DNA of 16,322 nucleotides, taken from the NCBI GenBank assembly GCA_946612185.1, contig CAMOEP010000015.1, forward strand, positions 1 to 16,322, given 5' to 3'. Numbering within the stretch: the first letter of the stretch is position 1; the number at the start of each line of letters is the position of its first letter. Of this stretch, positions 4,364 through 14,871 are shown in pieces. The stretch comes from an uncultured Ruminococcus sp. GTDB lineage: Bacteria > Bacillota > Clostridia > Oscillospirales > Ruminococcaceae. Under the pieces are notes generated by a model. That model did no database searches. It saw nothing but the letters and a program-made list of their open reading frames with translations, and had not been told where the DNA came from. A program made the translations under genes and the position numbers.

Positions 4364-5258
4364 AGCCAAGCACCTCCAGTTCGTAGATAAATATTTCTTC
4401 AAGAGTAAGCGGGATAACTTCCAGGAGCATCGGGCGTTTCGGAGCGAAAACAGCCTTGATAACGTCCTCATCACCCTTAGCGATGATGTAGTAGATACTC
4501 TGATTGCGCTCGAAGTGGAGAACTTCAAGGTCAGGGAAGTCAGCCTGTGTATATTCGGGAGTATTGCCGCTGTCGTCCTTGGGGAATACGACCTGTATCT
4601 TGTGGATACTGCCCTTAACGCTGTCGATATCACGGGCGAAGATCACCTTGCCGTCGTGGATAAGTGCGGCGGTGTCGCAGACCTCGTTTATCTCCTTTAA
4701 GTTATGGGAGGAGATGATAGTGGTCATCTGTCTGTCGATCATAGCGTCAACCAGCATTTTCTTGACGATGATGCGCATAGTTGGGTCAAGACCGTCGAAA
4801 GCCTCGTCCAGGAGCAGGTAATCCGGCTGGCAGGCAAGACCGATAATAACGATAGCCTGACGCTTCATGCCCTTTGAGAAGGTGGAGAGCTTCTTATCAA
4901 GTGGCAGCTTCACCTTGCTGCGGAGGTTCTCGAATACCTCCTCGGAGAAGTTGGGGTAGAAAAGCTTGTAGTAGTCCTTGAGTTTTTTGAGGGTATATCC
5001 GGTAAACTGGATAGTCTCATCGTTGATGAAGAAAACCCTCTGCTTGATGCTTACATCGTCGTAGGCTTCCTTACCGTCGATAAGCACCTGACCGCCGTCA
5101 GCACGGTAGATACCTGAAAGCAGGCGGAGTATAGTAGATTTACCAGCGCCGTTAGAACCGAGAAGTCCGAACGAAGCGCCTTTTTCGATAGTAAGGTCGA
5201 TACCGTCCAGGGCGGTATAATCATCGAATTTCTTGACAGTATTTTTTAATTCGATCAT
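4335..5258 (-). CDS. ABC transporter ATP-binding protein (YtrB-like)
   Basis: Cytoplasmic ATPase (307 residues) that powers the adjacent permease. All nucleotide-binding motifs are present: Walker A GSNGAGKS (34-41), the signature region LSTFSKGMKRQ (124-134, a variant of LSGGQ with SKGM typical of YtrB-like and BcrA-like exporters), Walker B YLLLDEAFDGLDP (147-159), and the H-loop His185 in IISSH. The last 90 residues (about 215-307) form an accessory domain as seen in exporter ATPases of this group. The ATG at 5258 overlaps the TGA of the GntR gene (ATGA, 4 bases), which indicates coupling, and the 3' end overlaps the permease start. One ATPase with one large permease suggests that either the permease dimerises or a partner lies elsewhere. 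Confidence 0.93.
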   Translation of the reverse strand: MIELKNTVKKFDDYTALDGIDLTIEKGASFGLLGSNGAGKSTILRLLSGIYRADGGQVLIDGKEAYDDVSIKQRVFFINDETIQFTGYTLKKLKDYYKLFYPNFSEEVFENLRSKVKLPLDKKLSTFSKGMKRQAIVIIGLACQPDYLLLDEAFDGLDPTMRIIVKKMLVDAMIDRQMTTIISSHNLKEINEVCDTAALIHDGKVIFARDIDSVKGSIHKIQVVFPKDDSGNTPEYTQADFPDLEVLHFERNQSIYYIIAKGDEDVIKAVFAPKRPMLLEVIPLTLEEIFIYELEVLGYDSSDINND

Positions 5259-5623
5259 TTTCCATTCTCCTTTCCATGAAGTGTGTCAATACGATTTTTC
5301 ATATCGTCGGGACTGATGCCACGCTTGAAGCCGTCACAAACGGCGTTATCAAAGTCAGCCCAGGCAGCGCTTACGAAAGCGGCGTTATCGGTTTTAGCAA
5401 TGAAACTGCCTCTGCCGGGCACGGAGTAGATTATACCATTCCGTTCAAGTTCCTGGTAAGCTTTTGCGACGGTGTTCGGGTTAACGCCGGCATCTTTGGC
5501 GAAACTGCGCACGCTTGGAAGCTGGTCGTTCTCATTCAGCGTACCGCTTATTACCATGTCAACTATGGAACTATATATCTGCTCATAAATGGGAATTCTG
5601 CTTGTAAGGTCGATAGAAAACAT
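5255..5623 (-). CDS. GntR family transcriptional regulator, YtrA subfamily
   Basis: Small one-domain GntR repressor of 122 residues. The winged helix-turn-helix spans about residues 10-77: IPIYEQIYSSIVDMVISGTL, then LPSVRSFAKDAGVNPNTVAKAY (recognition helix) and the wing NGIIYSVPGRGSFIA. A short helical tail follows, and the large effector domain of FadR/HutC types is absent; this length and layout define the YtrA group, which controls adjacent ABC exporter genes. The start is ATG at 5623, preceded by AAAGGAG at five-base spacing; a longer open frame reaches 5731 but would begin upstream of the promoter. It is the first gene of its operon. The dyad just downstream of its promoter suggests autorepression, with release under envelope or drug stress as in known family members. 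Confidence 0.92.
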   Translation of the reverse strand: MFSIDLTSRIPIYEQIYSSIVDMVISGTLNENDQLPSVRSFAKDAGVNPNTVAKAYQELERNGIIYSVPGRGSFIAKTDNAAFVSAAWADFDNAVCDGFKRGISPDDMKNRIDTLHGKENGK

Positions 5624-5646
5624 AGGCACTCCTTTCTGTAGTAGGT

Positions 5647-5665
5647 GTACTATATCGTGTAGTAC
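5647..5665 (-). promoter_or_regulatory. Dyad operator, probable binding site of the GntR regulator
   Basis: Perfect dyad GTACTA-N7-TAGTAC, located about 9 to 27 bases downstream of the expected transcription start and 24 bases before the GntR start codon. GntR proteins bind such short dyads, and YtrA-type regulators usually repress their own operon, so this is the likely autoregulatory site. The protein-site link is inferred from position and symmetry. Confidence 0.7.
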
Positions 5666-5680
5666 GGTTATTACAGTTAT

Positions 5681-5709
5681 ATAATACCACACATTTTCAG
5701 GTTTGTCAA
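5681..5709 (-). promoter_or_regulatory. Sigma70-type promoter of the GntR/ABC operon
   Basis: Leftward -35 TTGACA (5709-5704) and -10 TATTAT (5686-5681), separated by exactly 17 bases. Expected start near 5674. The dyad end of repeat copy A lies about 20 bases upstream of the -35 box, across an AT-rich tract. Confidence 0.85.
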
Positions 5710-5728
5710 TAGTTTTTTTGAAATTTTT

Positions 5729-5851
5729 CAAGCTGCGTCAGCTTGACCAAGCTGAGCCAGCTTGACCGCTCCCACGTTGTCGCTTGCTTACGCTCGCTTA
5801 CTTCGTTAGAAACGGTGCTTTTTACGTCGCTCAACCATATTTTGCTTGGTA
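5729..5851 (-). repeat. Intergenic repeat family, copy A (leftward)
   Basis: Read leftward, this copy starts at TACCA (5851) and runs through the core GGTTGAGCGAC (5836-5826), CCGTTTCTA, AGTAAGCGAG and CAACGTGGGAGCGG to the dyad CAAGCTG-GCT-CAGCTTG (5764-5748). Unlike the other copies it has a second dyad, CAAGCTG-ACG-CAGCTTG (5745-5729), two bases further on. It points toward the promoter of the GntR/ABC operon. It forms a long imperfect inverted repeat with copy B, heads facing, across a spacer of about 61 bases. Confidence 0.9.
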
Positions 5852-5912
5852 CAGAGTTCTCCGGTAGAACAAAAAAAGCGGCAGTTTACAGAAATACTTG
5901 AATAGGACTTAG
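5852..5912. other. Spacer between inverted repeat copies A and B
   Basis: This is the centre of the 461-base gap between the GntR gene and the cation transporter gene. It holds a short hairpin (GTTCT-CCGGT-AGAAC) followed by a run of seven A. I see no open frame with a ribosome binding site and no RNA gene here; the rest of the gap is repeats and promoters. Confidence 0.6.
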
Positions 5913-6015
5913 TACCATTGAAAACACGGTTGAGCGACGGCAAAAGTACCGTTTCTAAAAAAGTAAGCGAGTTAACGAGCGTCAACGTGATATGTGGTCA
6001 AGCTGACGCAGCTTG
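5913..6015 (+). repeat. Intergenic repeat family, copy B (rightward)
   Basis: A 103-base unit from TACCATTG through GGTTGAGCGAC (5928-5938), CAAAAGTACCGTTTCTA, AGTAAGCGAG and GAGCGTCAACGTG to the dyad CAAGCTG-ACG-CAGCTTG (5999-6015). It is followed by GCTTGGCTTGAAA, in which TTGAAA serves as the -35 box of the cation transporter gene. With copy C it also shares upstream bases (GAATAG...TAGTACCATTG), so similarity may start near 5900. Confidence 0.92.
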
Positions 6016-6022
6016 GCTTGGC

Positions 6023-6051
6023 TTGAAATTTTAATAGGTATGTGGTATAAT
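6023..6051 (+). promoter_or_regulatory. Sigma70-type promoter of the cation transporter pair
   Basis: -35 TTGAAA (6023-6028) and -10 TATAAT (6046-6051) with a 17-base spacer. The -35 begins seven bases after the dyad of repeat copy B. The leader to the ATG at 6085 is about 27 bases, too short for a metal riboswitch. Confidence 0.85.
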
Positions 6052-6084
6052 AGTAGTGAAATATATTACCGAGGGGAGCATTTT

Positions 6085-7227
6085 ATGGAAAATACTATTG
6101 ACACTAAAAAAGAAATCAGCCGTGATAAGGTCATAGTCCGGACAAGTATCATCGGAATCGGCGCAAATATCCTCCTCGCCGGATTCAAGGCGATCGTGGG
6201 TGTACTGTCACATTCTATCGCTATCGTCCTGGACGCTGTAAACAACCTCAGCGATGCCGGTTCGTCACTTATAACCATTATCGGCACTAAACTTGCCTCC
6301 AAACAGCCTGACAAAAAACACCCCTGGGGTCACGGGCGTATCGAGTACCTCAGCGCTATCCTGATCTCATTGATCGTGCTTTACGCTGGTTTTACCTCGC
6401 TGACTAAGTCCGTCCATAAGATTATCGTCCCTGAAACTCCCGACTACTCAGCCGCAACACTGATAATCGTTTCCGCAGCGGTAGTAGTTAAAATATTCCT
6501 TGGATCTTTTGTCAAGCGCACCGGCGAAAAGGTGAACTCCGATTCCCTTGTAAATTCCGGCAAGGACGCTCTCATGGACTCGCTCATCTCCGCCTCGACC
6601 CTTGCGGCAGCGATAATATTTCTCATCACCGGCAAAAGCCTTGAAGCATGGCTCGGTGCGATAATCTCGGTTATCATCATAAAGTCCGGAATAGATATGC
6701 TGAAAGATTCCATATCACACCTGCTTGGCGAGAGGGTAAGCTTCGAGACAGCACAGTCCGTACAGAAGTGCATCATGAGTTTCCCGGAAGTTATGGGCGT
6801 TTACGACCTTATTTTCCACGACTACGGCCCGGACAGACTTAACTGCTCCGTCCATGTCGAGATACCCGACACCATGACCGCCGTCCAGATAGACGAACTT
6901 GGCAGGGCAGTTACCACAAAGCTTTACAATGAACTTGGGGTAATTATGACCGCCATGAGCGTCTACTCAATGAACACCAGCGACACAAAAGCAACTGCGA
7001 TCCGTGAGGACATAAGCCAGATGCTACTGTCACAGGAGTATATCATACAGCTTCACGGCTTTTACCTGAATGATACAGAGAAGCTGATACAGTTTGATAT
7101 GATCGTAAGCTTTGACGCACCTGACCGCCTTGAAGTATACAATAAAGCAGTGAAAATGGTCGAGGAGAAGTACCCGGAATACCGCATAGTATGTGTACTT
7201 GACAGCGACTTCTGCGTAAGCGAATAG
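6085..7227 (+). CDS. Cation diffusion facilitator family metal transporter
   Basis: Inner-membrane divalent metal efflux protein of 380 residues, driving export by exchange with protons. The start is ATG at 6085 with GAGGGGAG upstream; an earlier in-frame TTG at 6013 lies in the repeat and before the promoter. About six helices occupy residues 18-208. TM2 carries LDAVNNLSD (49-57; Asn53-x3-Asp57), the loop has the family block KQPDKKHPWGHGRIEYLSA (73-91), and TM5 carries Asp161-x3-Asp165. The Zn-type His of TM5 is absent, so Mn or Fe is more likely than Zn; this is inference from motif types. Residues about 212-297 are the cytoplasmic metallochaperone-like domain; a further 80 residues (to DSDFCVSE) form an extension seen in clostridial members. 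The next gene starts 10 bases after its stop. Confidence 0.92.
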   Translation: MENTIDTKKEISRDKVIVRTSIIGIGANILLAGFKAIVGVLSHSIAIVLDAVNNLSDAGSSLITIIGTKLASKQPDKKHPWGHGRIEYLSAILISLIVLYAGFTSLTKSVHKIIVPETPDYSAATLIIVSAAVVVKIFLGSFVKRTGEKVNSDSLVNSGKDALMDSLISASTLAAAIIFLITGKSLEAWLGAIISVIIIKSGIDMLKDSISHLLGERVSFETAQSVQKCIMSFPEVMGVYDLIFHDYGPDRLNCSVHVEIPDTMTAVQIDELGRAVTTKLYNELGVIMTAMSVYSMNTSDTKATAIREDISQMLLSQEYIIQLHGFYLNDTEKLIQFDMIVSFDAPDRLEVYNKAVKMVEEKYPEYRIVCVLDSDFCVSE

Positions 7228-7237
7228 GAGTGCAGCT

Positions 7238-7516
7238 ATGGTATTGATAGTGATATTCCTTGTAATTGTCTGTATCATGAGCCTGACGGCGTTTATACTT
7301 TACGGTATGGACAAGAAGAAGGCGAAGAACAAGAAGTGGCGTATCCGTGAATCCGTCCTGCTTTGGGTGGGATTCCTGGGCGGAGCGATAGGAGCGCTGT
7401 CCGGTATGCACGCATTCCGCCACAAGACGAAGCACTGGTATTTCTGGGCGGTGAATATACTTGGCTTGCTATGGCAGGTGGGGATATTGTTCCTGCTTTT
7501 CTGGAAAATGAAATAA
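7238..7516 (+). CDS. DUF1294 family small membrane protein
   Basis: 92 residues matching the DUF1294 pattern: an N-terminal helix (2-24), then YGMDKKKAKNKKWRIRESVLL with the conserved D-K-x-x-A and W-R-I-x-E, then GGAIGALSGMHAFRHKTKHWYF with the conserved F-R-H-K-T, and a last helix (72-90). The biochemical role of the family is unknown to me. The start ATG at 7238 has AGGAG at 7226-7230 that overlaps the stop of the transporter gene, so both are translated from one message. A terminator follows at 7538. Confidence 0.92.
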   Translation: MVLIVIFLVIVCIMSLTAFILYGMDKKKAKNKKWRIRESVLLWVGFLGGAIGALSGMHAFRHKTKHWYFWAVNILGLLWQVGILFLLFWKMK

Positions 7517-7537
7517 CAATTGTTTGGAGAACAGATA

Positions 7538-7579
7538 TGCCCCTGAACGTATTTTGAGCGTCCGGGGGCATTGATTTTT
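7538..7579 (+). terminator. Intrinsic terminator of the cation transporter operon
   Basis: A 12-bp stem with one mismatch and one wobble (7538-7549 with 7559-7570), GC-rich at its base (TGCCCC/GGGGCA), loop of nine bases, followed by TTGATTTTT. It lies 22 bases after the DUF1294 stop and directly abuts the end of the opposing small gene. Confidence 0.85.
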
Positions 7580-7859
7580 ATGTTAAATCGGAGGTAATGG
7601 TAACAGAATACTGCATTTGTGACTGACTTGAAATATATGACTTTAATACATAATTTATCTTATCAACGCATTGCACCTCATTTTCCGCAGAAAACCAAAA
7701 AATCTCATTATCATATAAATCGTACAGGCTGTCGGTAGCTTCTAACTGAAGTTCGGGAATTTTATTAATCAAAAAGTTGTCCACATCTTCTGTTATTCCA
7801 AGTTCCTTCTCAATATGCAAAACGCCACAACCATAATTATAAAAATGCACCTTTATCAT
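7578..7859 (-). CDS. Hypothetical 93-residue protein
   Basis: I do not recognise this protein. It is acidic, has no signal peptide or membrane helix, and has mixed helix/strand character, with aromatic-rich stretches (LYDLYDNEIFWFSAENEV near residues 45-62). It is judged real because ATG at 7859 is preceded by AGGGAGAT at good spacing and by a textbook leftward promoter at 7889-7917. It uses AT-rich codons (many AAT, ATT, TTA, TAT) unlike its GC-richer neighbours, which hints at separate acquisition. It stands alone between a terminator and the repeat cluster. Small immunity-like or stress proteins can look like this, but nothing in the sequence proves either. Confidence 0.7.
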   Translation of the reverse strand: MIKVHFYNYGCGVLHIEKELGITEDVDNFLINKIPELQLEATDSLYDLYDNEIFWFSAENEVQCVDKINYVLKSYISSQSQMQYSVTITSDLT

Positions 7860-7888
7860 TTTTTATCTCCCTGATTAATATTATTAAT

Positions 7889-7917
7889 ATTATAGCATTG
7901 TACTTCGGTAATGTCAA
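7889..7917 (-). promoter_or_regulatory. Sigma70-type promoter of the small hypothetical gene
   Basis: Leftward -35 TTGACA (7917-7912), a 17-base spacer, and -10 TATAAT (7894-7889) preceded by TGC, which makes an extended -10. Both hexamers match the consensus exactly. The leader to the ATG at 7859 is about 22-24 bases and contains an AT-rich palindromic tract (AATATTAATAATATTAAT). Confidence 0.88.
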
Positions 7918-7963
7918 CATAATGCGCATAATTAGTGAATTGTGAAAAGTGAATAGAACATAG

Positions 7964-8066
7964 TACCATTGCAAAGCTGGTTGAGCGACTGCAAAAGTAC
8001 CGTTTCTAAAAGAGTAAGCGAGAGAAGCGAGCGTCAACGTGGGAGCGCTCAAGCTGGCTCAGCTTG
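7964..8066 (+). repeat. Intergenic repeat family, copy C (rightward)
   Basis: A 103-base unit: TACCATTGCAAA, core GGTTGAGCGAC (7979-7989), CAAAAGTACCGTTTCTA, AGTAAGCGAG, GAGCGTCAACGTGGGAGCG, ending in dyad CAAGCTG-GCT-CAGCTTG (8050-8066). It is nearly identical to copy B across the core. The last G is also the first base of copy D, so C and D form a head-to-tail tandem. Similarity with copy B starts a little earlier (GAATAG at 7951). Confidence 0.92.
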
Positions 8067-8152
8067 GTTGAGCGACTGCAAAAGTACTGTTTCTACATTG
8101 TGAGCGAGTTTACGAGCGTCAACGTGAGAAGCGGTCAAGCTGGCTCAGCTTG
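8066..8152 (+). repeat. Intergenic repeat family, copy D (rightward, lacks head)
   Basis: An 87-base unit that lacks the TACCATTG head: GGTTGAGCGAC (8066-8076), CAAAAGTACTGTTTCTA, GAGCGAG, GAGCGTCAACGTG, ending in dyad CAAGCTG-GCT-CAGCTTG (8136-8152). The bases after it, CAGCTTGGCTTGACC, repeat part of the dyad and supply the -35 box for the exonuclease gene. Together with copy C it fills most of the 350-base gap between 7859 and 8210; beyond the two promoters I see nothing else in that gap. Confidence 0.9.
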
Positions 8153-8161
8153 CAGCTTGGC

Positions 8162-8190
8162 TTGACCGCAGGGAGAATATGGTGTATAAT
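8162..8190 (+). promoter_or_regulatory. Sigma70-type promoter of the exonuclease gene
   Basis: -35 TTGACC (8162-8167) and -10 TATAAT (8185-8190), 17-base spacer. The -35 starts nine bases past the dyad of repeat copy D. The bases TATAATAGTA are shared with the promoter behind copy B. Confidence 0.85.
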
Positions 8191-8209
8191 AGTAAGCGGA
8201 GGTGCTGCT

Positions 8210-8791
8210 ATGCTTAAAGACGAACGCAGCTTTGCTGTTATTGATACCGAAACTAATTGGGACGACCAGATAATGTCCATCGGCGTGACTATTTCCGGTC
8301 ACGACTTTCAGCCGGTCGAGTCCAGGTACTATATAGTTACTCCGGAATGTCTGCGTCCGGGAATGTACTCATCTGTACTCAGAAAAAAAGACGTTGCCGT
8401 ACACATGGAGGACGAGCGAACCAAGATTCTGGAAGATATCCGCAAGCTTATGAAAAAACACGGTTCATGTGCTATTTTCGCCTATAACGCACGGTTCGAT
8501 ATGAACCACCTGCCGGAACTGTCTGCTTACCGCTGGTACGATATTATCCGCATTGCCGCTTACAGGCAGTATAACAAAACTATCCCGGAAAATGCTGATT
8601 GCTGCGCAACTGGCAGACTAAAGCGCAATTACGGCGTTGAACCCATTATGCAGGGGCTTTCCGGCAAGCAAACTTACCGTGAAGTTCACAACGCTATGTG
8701 CGATGCGGCAGATGAACTTCTTGTCATGAAGTACTTAGGTCACAGCATTGAAACCTATGAGTGCGCACTGATAAATGGTAAAGTTAAATGA
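8210..8791 (+). CDS. DEDDh-type 3'-5' exonuclease domain protein
   Basis: Single-domain nuclease of 193 residues from the DnaQ-like/RNase T superfamily, which removes nucleotides from 3' ends of DNA or RNA with two metal ions. Exo I: FAVIDTETNW (Asp12, Glu14). Exo II: IFAYNARFDMNHL (Asn93, Asp97). Exo III: REVHNAMCDAADE (His160, Asp165, H-x4-D), which makes it the DEDDh class. All catalytic residues are present. The start is ATG at 8210, with GGAGGT seven bases upstream; an earlier TTG at 8150 lies inside the repeat and before the promoter. It appears monocistronic, since the next gene has its own promoter. Whether it acts on DNA, RNA or a small nucleotide cannot be told from sequence. Confidence 0.88.
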   Translation: MLKDERSFAVIDTETNWDDQIMSIGVTISGHDFQPVESRYYIVTPECLRPGMYSSVLRKKDVAVHMEDERTKILEDIRKLMKKHGSCAIFAYNARFDMNHLPELSAYRWYDIIRIAAYRQYNKTIPENADCCATGRLKRNYGVEPIMQGLSGKQTYREVHNAMCDAADELLVMKYLGHSIETYECALINGKVK

Positions 8792-12405: not shown

Positions 12406-14871
12406 TTACTTCTCCGGCAGCATATCCTTCATAGCGCACAGGTCGAAAGCGTTGAGAACGTTGTCATTGCAAAGGTCAGCGTATTCCCAGTTAATAAGTG
12501 CAGTACCGTCACCGAGCAGCCATTTCTGGAGAGTTACCACATCGGCAATGTTGAACTTGCCGTCGTAGTTGATATCACCGGCAACACCCTTAGCACTTTT
12601 AGCAATAGCAGTTTCAAATGAGCCGTTGTTATCAGCATCAACGGAAACGCCGATAGTGTACTTATCTATCTGGTAGAGTTTAGCCTTATTGTACTTGGTA
12701 GAAAAGCTTACATTAGCGGCATAATGCCTGTTATTAGCCTCTACCTTAACGTTCTGGAGGTTATCAGCTTCGATGATAAATCCGTCGTCGGTCATTTCCA
12801 TTGACACAATGTCAGCATTTTCACCGTTAACGTCGAATGCGAACCAGTCGGTTGCATGATCGCCGTCGAAAATCATGGAGATATTGTAGTCAGCGGATTC
12901 ACCGTCAACCTGAACGAATCCGTTCTGGTCGAAAATGACCTGAGTTCCGGCGGCAGAACCGGCACGGAGGAGGCAGTTTTCGTAATCCATACTCAGTTGA
13001 AGTTCAGTAGGTTCATTCTGAACGACCATGTAAGCCGAATCGGGGTCATACAGGTTATAGCCGGAAGTACCGGAGGAAGAACCGCCGGCGATGTAGGACA
13101 TATCAGCGATGATATCACCGGCAGCAGACGACAGTGATGTATAATTGCCATTGGAATTCTTCACCTTAGCGACAGAGTGGTTTTCCGAGATAGCAGCAGC
13201 GTCTATTCTGGCAACATAGTTTGAAGTATCGGCGTTTTTAGTGCCATTCAGGAAACCGCCATTATTGATAGCATTTACATCAGCGCCGATATAGTTTATT
13301 ACAGCGCCGCTTGCGGACGTGATACCGGTGTAAGCGGGAATCTCCCAGTTATACGTCTTTGAATTGAAGTAGATATTGAACCAGGGGTCGTATTCTGTTG
13401 AGTTATTGGGGTCAACGATATAGATACAGCCGTCATAGGTCTTACCGCTCCAAGTCCAGCTTCCGAAGGAATAGTCGTAAGCGAGTATTGCGTGACCGCC
13501 CCAGTACGGTTTTTTGAATCCTACGAGAACCACATCATTTTTATCGAGCTGGGACATAAGTTCGGTAATGTTTTCCTTGTGTGAGCGTTTCGGAACACTT
13601 CTGTACTGCTGCTGGATAACGCTCTTGACCTGGAGAAGCTGGTAATAGTTCACAAGTGAGCTTACATCTAAGTCGTCAATAGGCGCAGGGAGGTCATGAG
13701 GACAGGCTGCGCCTGCTTTATAATTTGAGCATGGCACAAGACCGTTTTTGTTAAGGAGCAGCAGGGAGGACATACCGTAGCAAGAGCCGTCCCAATCCTC
13801 ATCTATCCAGGGAGTGTGCCATTTGCCTAATGAATCATAGTATCCCTGAAAAACGGTTTCATATTCGCTGTTAGTAAGGTTATCAGCGAGGACTTTTTTG
13901 TAGTAGCTGTTGATTTTCGGGGACATCGGCCCAGCGCCGAAATAGTCGTCCCAGTTATTGAAGTTCCAGTTATCCGTATCCCAACGGAAAGAGGAAACAG
14001 TTTCCGGCTCGGTGGTAGTGGTGACGGTGGTCGTGGTGGTAACGGTGGTGGAAGTTGTGGTAGCTGTAGTTGTAGTTACCTGACCGCCCTCGATAGCGAT
14101 ATATCCGTCGTACTCGCCCTTTATGTCAGCCAGAGCAGGAGTTCTGAGGATATCGTCATTATCAGCCTTGAAATTATTGTTATACTCAGGGTTATAAATG
14201 CCCTGAGTGAAGGTATACGCTTGCAGCAGTCTTCTATCCTCGATGCTCTTGGTTAATGAAAAGAAAGTGTCGTCAGCATAATAATTACCATTTCTTACAG
14301 AAACAAACTTTATATCAATAGGGTAAACGTCGCCAGCTTTAGCGTCATCAGGGATTCTGACCTTGAATGAATACATCAGACCGTCGGTGCATACATCATC
14401 GCCTGAGGCAGATAAAACCATAATACCTTTTTGCATATTCTCATTATCAGGGTTAGTTGATTCGGGAATGAGGTTATTATCATAGGTCACATTAGCGGCT
14501 TCTTCGAGAGAATCGCCAATGGTAACATCTGGTTTTCCGGTTTTTCTCTGAATGATATCGAGCCTTGAGTCAACAAAGTAGTGGAAACCGGTAGCGGCGA
14601 AATAACCGCCTTCCTGACCGGAAGAAATGTATATATCAATAGTTCTTACAGGGTCATTTTTTGCCTCATCAAGGGTGATGACCTCCTTTGTAGCGGTTAT
14701 CACAGGCTTTATTTTGGAACTGAGTATGGTATCCATATCCAGAATTTCGTAACCAGCACCGCCGCAAGCTGGGTCATGACCTTCATCATACGCATTGACT
14801 GACAAAGGTGATAATGACATAGCGGCAATAGTCAGCGACGAGACAAATCTTTTAATCAAACTTTTTTTCAT
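12406..14871 (-). CDS. Secreted dockerin protein with papain-like protease domain and cohesin-like N-terminus
   Basis: 821 residues, exported and likely part of a cellulosome-type complex. Signal peptide 1-27 (cut after SVNA). Residues about 55-262 look cohesin-like: beta strands such as VRTIDIYISSGQEGGYFAATGF, then DGLMYSFKVRIPDDAKAGDVYPI, ending GEYDGYIAIEGG. A Thr linker (266-287) follows. Residues about 295-530 resemble papain-like peptidases: Cys364 in WDGSCYGMSS, His460 in WGGHAILAYDY, and Asp487/Asn489 in IVDPNNS, in the order C-H-N/D. A beta-rich region (530-760) precedes a C-terminal dockerin (765-819). Its first Ca2+ loop is DINYDGKFNIAD; the second is DLCNDNVLNAFD with Cys at position 3. 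The start ATG at 14871 has AGAGGAG eight bases upstream. The dockerin and signal peptide are certain; the peptidase call is good, the cohesin call tentative. Secreted proteases with dockerins are known in Ruminococcus flavefaciens. Confidence 0.88.
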   Translation of the reverse strand: MKKSLIKRFVSSLTIAAMSLSPLSVNAYDEGHDPACGGAGYEILDMDTILSSKIKPVITATKEVITLDEAKNDPVRTIDIYISSGQEGGYFAATGFHYFVDSRLDIIQRKTGKPDVTIGDSLEEAANVTYDNNLIPESTNPDNENMQKGIMVLSASGDDVCTDGLMYSFKVRIPDDAKAGDVYPIDIKFVSVRNGNYYADDTFFSLTKSIEDRRLLQAYTFTQGIYNPEYNNNFKADNDDILRTPALADIKGEYDGYIAIEGGQVTTTTATTTSTTVTTTTTVTTTTEPETVSSFRWDTDNWNFNNWDDYFGAGPMSPKINSYYKKVLADNLTNSEYETVFQGYYDSLGKWHTPWIDEDWDGSCYGMSSLLLLNKNGLVPCSNYKAGAACPHDLPAPIDDLDVSSLVNYYQLLQVKSVIQQQYRSVPKRSHKENITELMSQLDKNDVVLVGFKKPYWGGHAILAYDYSFGSWTWSGKTYDGCIYIVDPNNSTEYDPWFNIYFNSKTYNWEIPAYTGITSASGAVINYIGADVNAINNGGFLNGTKNADTSNYVARIDAAAISENHSVAKVKNSNGNYTSLSSAAGDIIADMSYIAGGSSSGTSGYNLYDPDSAYMVVQNEPTELQLSMDYENCLLRAGSAAGTQVIFDQNGFVQVDGESADYNISMIFDGDHATDWFAFDVNGENADIVSMEMTDDGFIIEADNLQNVKVEANNRHYAANVSFSTKYNKAKLYQIDKYTIGVSVDADNNGSFETAIAKSAKGVAGDINYDGKFNIADVVTLQKWLLGDGTALINWEYADLCNDNVLNAFDLCAMKDMLPEK
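14007..14075 (-). repeat. Low-complexity tract encoding the Thr-rich linker
   Basis: A run of ACC/ACA/ACT Thr codons in the leftward gene, seen on this strand as GGTGGT/GTAGTTG triplets. It encodes the flexible linker between the cohesin-like and peptidase domains. Thr-rich linkers are common in secreted Ruminococcus enzymes and are often glycosylated; the tract may vary in length between strains. Confidence 0.8.

Follow-up and report, generated by a model that had tools for sequence, protein, structure and literature searches.

The symmetric dyads that lie next to promoter-like sites in a 16,322-nucleotide stretch of an uncultured rumen Ruminococcus sp. (contig CAMOEP010000015.1 of assembly GCA_946612185.1; hereafter the window) are likely the hairpins at the ends of an intergenic palindromic repeat that is present genus-wide and in high copy number. 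The repeat resembles bacterial interspersed mosaic elements (BIMEs) or the hairpins formed by inverted pairs of repetitive extragenic palindromic (REP) sequences (REPINs), and would be a filler that reaches up to functional boundaries rather than a shared activator site. It occurs in many copies with a regular architecture and a conserved hairpin, its edges lie at stop codons and −35 boxes, and its interiors differ from those of a close relative. Sometimes it donates the TTG of a −35 box and is thereby built into a promoter.

The window is contig C15 of a fragmented metagenome assembly (G000; 433 contigs, 73.7% complete), of which 67 repeat-bearing stretches and 14 repeat-free contigs were analyzed. 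The repeat unit is about 115 nt long and consists of a tail (TGAATAGAACATAGTACCATTG...), a middle (GGTTGAGCGACTGCAAAAGTACCGTTTCTA), a head (GTAAGCGAG...GAGCGTCAACGTG) and a dyad (TCAAGCTGNNNCAGCTTG). Allowing up to two mismatches, the dyad pattern was found 181 times on the forward and 178 times on the reverse strand of this genome, compared with 3 and 4 times for a reversed control; the symmetry of the dyad makes many sites match in both directions. A profile search with the unit yielded 219 units in 67 stretches, arranged in 90 clusters. Among the 63 clusters located at least 60 nt from the stretch ends, 55 contain several units. In 51 of the 55 a minus unit comes first and a plus unit last, which leaves the dyads pointing outward on both sides. 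Such minus-plus neighbors account for 75 of the 129 adjacent unit pairs and have a median span of 264 bp. With outward dyads at both cluster ends, a neighboring gene is therefore "pointed at" whatever it is. Twenty-seven of the 180 cluster ends lie less than 60 nt from a stretch end, several of them at true contig ends; the repeat probably breaks the assembly, and its copies are then under-counted. The repeat was matched in 56 of 125 genomes of the genus, with at most six candidates scored per genome, and one of these genomes, Ruminococcus sp. RGIG9177, served as the close relative for comparison (it corresponds to G077, as shown by the identity of locus L092 to L170 over 8000 bases).

To 146 of the 180 cluster ends a neighboring gene could be assigned, while 34 were dropped as being less than 60 nt from a stretch end or having no neighbor gene. 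Genes were predicted with a home-made caller without benchmark; it missed a 93-amino acid open reading frame (ORF) in the window, and the left end of the cluster formed by units C and D was consequently counted as stop-facing at 438 nt. Starts are faced by 91 of the usable ends and stops by 55. At 19 of the 55 stop-facing ends the element contains the predicted stop codon, although four of these frames read 34–151 nt into the element, and at another 11 the element edge follows 0–5 nt past the stop codon. At 11 of the remaining 25, five T in a row are found no more than 22 nt from the edge, as behind a terminator. Predicted proteins that take their last residues and their stop from the repeat occur where elements start at L070 6981, L071 5089, L079 4192 and L130 1505. 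Of 27 hits in other species of the genus, 22 have the dyad facing a stop, and the promoter-facing position is therefore not conserved; these hits include some sites more than once (L137/L176, L135/L175 and the orthologues L136–L138), genes were called by open-frame length, and the "start" in L136 is probably a gene end, corresponding to the stop in L137. Other species carry variant dyads, and accordingly the pattern with one mismatch gave only one forward and three reverse matches in G009.

Promoters were identified as consensus matches only, those with a score of 9 or more being termed promoter-like. Such a site is present at 65 of the 91 start-facing ends (mean of 11.4 after base shuffling), compared with 7 of the 55 stop-facing ends (3.4). 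In 30 of the 65 the −35 box begins −3 to +9 nt from the edge, whereas a simple uniform model, in which edges fall with equal probability anywhere from the upstream gene to the −35 box, gave a mean of 10.0 and a maximum of 20 in 5000 draws. When the exact TATAAT alone was counted, a measure that the letters of the dyad cannot inflate, it was present at 48 of 84 ends, lying 20–32 nt out in 18 of the 48 and closer in two. Edges crowd against the −35 box and rarely pass beyond it.

The dyad ends in GCTTG and can therefore overlap a −35 box that starts with TTG. Among promoters no more than 12 nt from an edge, 15 of 34 carry the signature of this overlap, GC directly before the −35 box; the figures are 1 of 31 for those farther away (Fisher p = 6e-5) and 11 of 103 for control promoters (Fisher p = 1e-4). 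Five promoters, at distance −3, use the TTG of the dyad itself. Within 16 nt outside the edge, scraps of the dyad end (GCTTG or GCTCG) were seen at 22 of the 91 start-facing and 10 of the 55 stop-facing ends, but in none of 146 windows placed 50–66 nt out. At the right edge of cluster 11 in G077, GGCTT is repeated several times over, which suggests that CTTGGCTTGA, named in the preliminary description, arose by slippage of the dyad end.

These data bear on the preliminary description of the window, which had proposed that the dyads at about −45 to −60 could be activator sites that link three unrelated units. A symmetric dyad does lie just upstream of the −35 box in the three promoters concerned, with 19 nt between dyad and box for A, 7 nt for B and 9 nt for D, as originally described. 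The expectation that copies would keep one orientation relative to promoters throughout the genome did not hold, since the ends face starts and stops alike. A non-random distance was confirmed where a promoter is faced, but the gaps between dyad and −35 box range from −3 to 186 nt and helical phasing of the edge to the −35 box was not found (Rayleigh p about 0.14). The dyad is, moreover, the end of a 115-nt repeat with hundreds of copies. A common regulator site is thus very improbable, and the activator regulon was rejected on the grounds of the stop-facing ends and the lack of phasing.

The preliminary description had also offered a promoter-carrying mobile repeat, comparable to a miniature inverted-repeat transposable element (MITE), which would insert with an outward partial −35 box and be kept where a hybrid promoter is made or improved. 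The GC-prefixed −35 boxes near the edges, the five promoters with the TTG of the dyad and the mild enrichment of starts and divergent gaps are what such an element would produce, and the claim that two copies supply a −35 box in this sense reflects a general tendency. Whether the flank "creates" the box is doubtful. TTGAAA-17-TATAAT is also found upstream of the orthologue of the cation transporter gene next to copy B in L234 (G012) and L237 (G018), where the sequence examined contains no repeat, so the −35 box of copy B is probably older than the repeat. For this comparison the upstream stretches of 16 of 30 transporter loci were scanned; four scored 9 or more (the window itself, L234, L237 and L244), and the remainder were mostly coding-like sequence. 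Likewise, both element-free start-facing ends of G077 that align to the junction (51_L and 20_R) have a promoter; in five more the alignment breaks off short of the junction, and two others reach the end of a stretch. Together with the stop-facing ends, which prevail in other species, and the lack of target duplication at 71 clusters, this makes an origin as a promoter-carrying insertion unlikely.

We next consider the structure of the element. Copies A and B, which had been described as separate sites, are the arms of one inverted repeat (5729–6015) that is predicted to fold as a single hairpin of single-stranded DNA with −88 kcal/mol, compared with a shuffle mean of −37.9 (z = −13.4). Across 196 dyads, 1327 of 1372 stem cells hold Watson-Crick pairs, and loops are 3 nt long in 151 dyads, 4 nt in 43 and 5 nt in two. 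Compensatory double changes number 43, while shuffling gave a mean of 7.8 and a maximum of 14. Judged from these patterns, the hairpin seems to matter, for whatever purpose.

The comparison with G077 allowed us to follow edges and interiors separately. Thirty of 152 G000 cluster flanks map to G077 stretches, and in 13 mapped ends the gene side is known and a unit lies within 450 nt, which was taken as presence of the element before edges were checked by eye. In 9 of the 13 the edge is the same within a few nucleotides (both ends of clusters 42, 45 and 46, the left end of 21 and the right ends of 11 and 75). At four sites where both flanks are available and each genome carries an element, the interiors are 83–87% identical with 39–214 gap columns, the figure for cluster 21 being affected by an uncertain right edge, and the flanks are 89.5–96.8% identical. 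Of the stop-facing ends where G077 lacks the element, two can be aligned as far as the junction: at 65_L the gene of G077 has its own TAA, while the G000 gene ends inside the element, and at 66_R the element directly adjoins a terminator. At 11_L (L074 9062 compared with L091 of G077) the terminator is whole in G077 and only its first letters are left in G000, as though the remainder had been consumed by the element.

Edges that are kept while interiors change, flush positions on both sides, a long hairpin with compensatory stem changes and the 30 of 55 stop-facing genes that end at or in an element could also be explained by a selected boundary or insulator, in which flush hairpins are kept for stopping read-through or protecting transcript ends. 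No terminator-like site, including canonical intrinsic terminators, was detected in the scanned region 5200–8400 of the window. In addition, the T-run just before the element at 11 of the 25 stop-facing ends with a larger gap to the stop and the varying presence of the element between close relatives argue against this explanation, which we regard as quite improbable.

The reading as an intergenic filler may be put in mechanistic terms as follows. Elements would spread, grow or be exchanged through non-functional intergenic DNA, possibly by unit duplication, recombination between copies and slippage of the GGCTT end. Selection would halt them at the first functional base, which is part of a −35 box where a promoter follows and of a stop codon or terminator where a gene ends. 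The dyad read inward offers TGA and may supply a stop codon, while its outer end GCTTG may overlap a −35 box beginning with TTG and lend its first letters. A tentative extension, possible rather than probable, is that the letters of the ends suit either type of gene boundary (inward TGA, outward GCTTG), so that the whole spacer from stop to promoter can be taken over with neither being broken. The repeat would then belong permanently to gene ends and hybrid promoters genome-wide, with edges that tend to stay and an interior that is exchanged between copies.

Several observations speak against the filler reading. A plain filler does not predict the excess of starts over all ends (91/146, compared with 133 of 276 sides of control gaps of at least 100 nt; p = 0.006), which is not significant when only clusters with both sides known are taken (64/112, p = 0.12), nor the enrichment of divergent gaps (17/56 compared with 21/138, p = 0.027). 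The excess in the count of TATAAT alone is moderate (18, with a null mean of 8.6 and a maximum of 21), and the compensatory changes concern mostly one pair (38 dyads with G-C for A-T at pair 2) and may go back to few events. Four of the 13 G077 ends have no common edge (10_R, 11_L, 21_R and 51_R). As to movement, target duplication was not found at 71 clusters, the longest shared flank letters being as in shuffled pairings, no clean empty site with both flanks was found, and Y1_Tnp, the one transposase type searched for, was not detected in the 73.7% of G000 that is present.

With the same restriction to Y1_Tnp, none was found in G077 (53% complete) or G107 (90%). Across the genus no link between Y1_Tnp and the repeat emerged, Y1 being present in 22 of the 56 genomes that match the repeat and in 19 of the remaining 69 (counted by hand). 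A link to a REP-associated tyrosine transposase (RAYT) was rejected on these two grounds, and insertion with target duplication was rejected because of the 71 clusters without it.

As outlined in PMC3733652, REP sequences and BIMEs of the GTAG and CGTC families occur in many intergenic copies, form short stem-loops whose inverted pairs may co-fold, and lie mainly at 3' gene ends; their termini supply stop codons, and CGTC families have no dedicated transposase. The same paper describes few REPs in divergent gaps and a varying distance from downstream genes. Our repeat is likewise a high-copy intergenic palindromic repeat with inverted pairs able to co-fold, repeat-supplied stop codons and edges at gene ends. 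It differs in its unit of about 115 instead of 20–40 nt and in the tag, which does not stand beside the stem: CGTC lies 14 nt before the dyad and is CGAC in many copies. It further differs from the GTAG kind in that no associated RAYT (Y1) was found, and from both in being common in divergent gaps (17/56), with 91 of 146 ends facing starts, near −35 boxes. REPINs, according to PMC3116915, are elements made of an inverted pair of palindromic repeats and occur along with clusters and singlets, as is similar here, but the arms are longer here and the Y1 transposase was not found in G000, G077 or G107. The main text of PMC3733652 contains none of the terms Ruminococcus, Clostridi and Firmicutes, and no description of a Ruminococcus repeat of this kind turned up in the portion of the open-licence literature searched.

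Correia elements and other MITEs are intergenic inverted repeats that, as stated in PMC10969869, can affect neighboring genes via sigma-70-like promoters. Terminal inverted repeats are common to these and our element, but here no target duplication is seen and only the first letters of the −35 box are lent, the −10 box lying outside. The ends of insertion sequences can form hybrid promoters. The outward −35 letters at the repeat end are comparable, with the difference that only TTG is lent and that no insertion sequence or transposase was seen (Y1_Tnp alone being sought).

The features of the window are listed in Table 1. Units C and D are tandem units.

Table 1. Repeat copies, dyads and promoter-like sites of the window.
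Feature	Position	Strand	Details
Copy A, two terminal dyads in tandem, pointing left	5728–5767	−	Dyads 5728–5746 and 5748–5765
Copy B, terminal dyad, pointing right	5998–6015	+	
Composite inverted-repeat element with copies A and B as arms	5729–6015		Outward-pointing dyad at either end; detected as inverted repeats I1 and I7; single hairpin; cluster "-+"
Unit C	7950–8066	+	Tail, middle, head and dyad (8049–8066) pointing into unit D
Unit D	8065–8152	+	Terminal dyad 8135–8152 pointing right
Promoter-like site upstream of the GntR/ABC genes	5681–5709 (5709 to 5681)	−	TTGACA-17-TATTAT, 19 nt beyond dyad A
Dyad-end scraps GCTTGGC leading into the promoter-like site of the cation transporter	6016–6051	+	TTGAAA-17-TATAAT; −35 at 6023–6028, −10 at 6046–6051
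Dyad-end scraps CAGCTTGGC leading into the promoter-like site of the 193-amino acid ORF	8153–8190	+	TTGACC-17-TATAAT; −35 at 8162–8167, −10 at 8185–8190

The promoters of copies B and D have TATAATAGTA in common, as the preliminary description had stated; among the 39 start-facing promoters whose −10 box is exactly TATAAT, four have AGTA after it, two of them besides these. Its statement that all dyads point at promoters was not upheld, since dyad C aims into the next unit and the best promoter is faced by a repeat tail. This site, a perfect TTGACA-17-TATAAT (12/12; 7917 to 7889, minus strand), is the top match of the scanned region 5200–8400 and reads left to the 93-amino acid ORF (region of site and ORF 7578–7917, minus strand), for which no family match above the cut-off was obtained. 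The label "exonuclease" for the 193-amino acid ORF downstream of copy D finds sub-threshold support only. Orthologues of this ORF are present in 8 of the 125 genus genomes including its own, the other seven at 52–57% identity, and in G119 TAGACA-17-TATAAT lies upstream of the orthologue without a repeat. No known RNA family was found at gathering scores.

Many dyads (in L070, L082, L084, L101, L114, L116, L122, L126 and L132) are immediately followed, outside the element edge, by another short repeat (AAAAAGTAAATGCTGTTGCCCTG and variants), which in G077 (L171 and L201) occurs also without the dyad element. Farther along, the window encodes an 821-amino acid protein with a C-terminal dockerin domain (12,406–14,871, minus strand). 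Dockerin domains occur in components of cellulosomes.

Taken together, our results illustrate how a repeat may be mistaken for a regulon if almost all of its clusters carry outward terminal dyads. The two close Ruminococcus relatives, with edges in common and differing interiors, represent a measurable system for the spread of a repeat without an evident transposase, and they are equally suited to asking how often intergenic repeats become part of promoters and gene ends.

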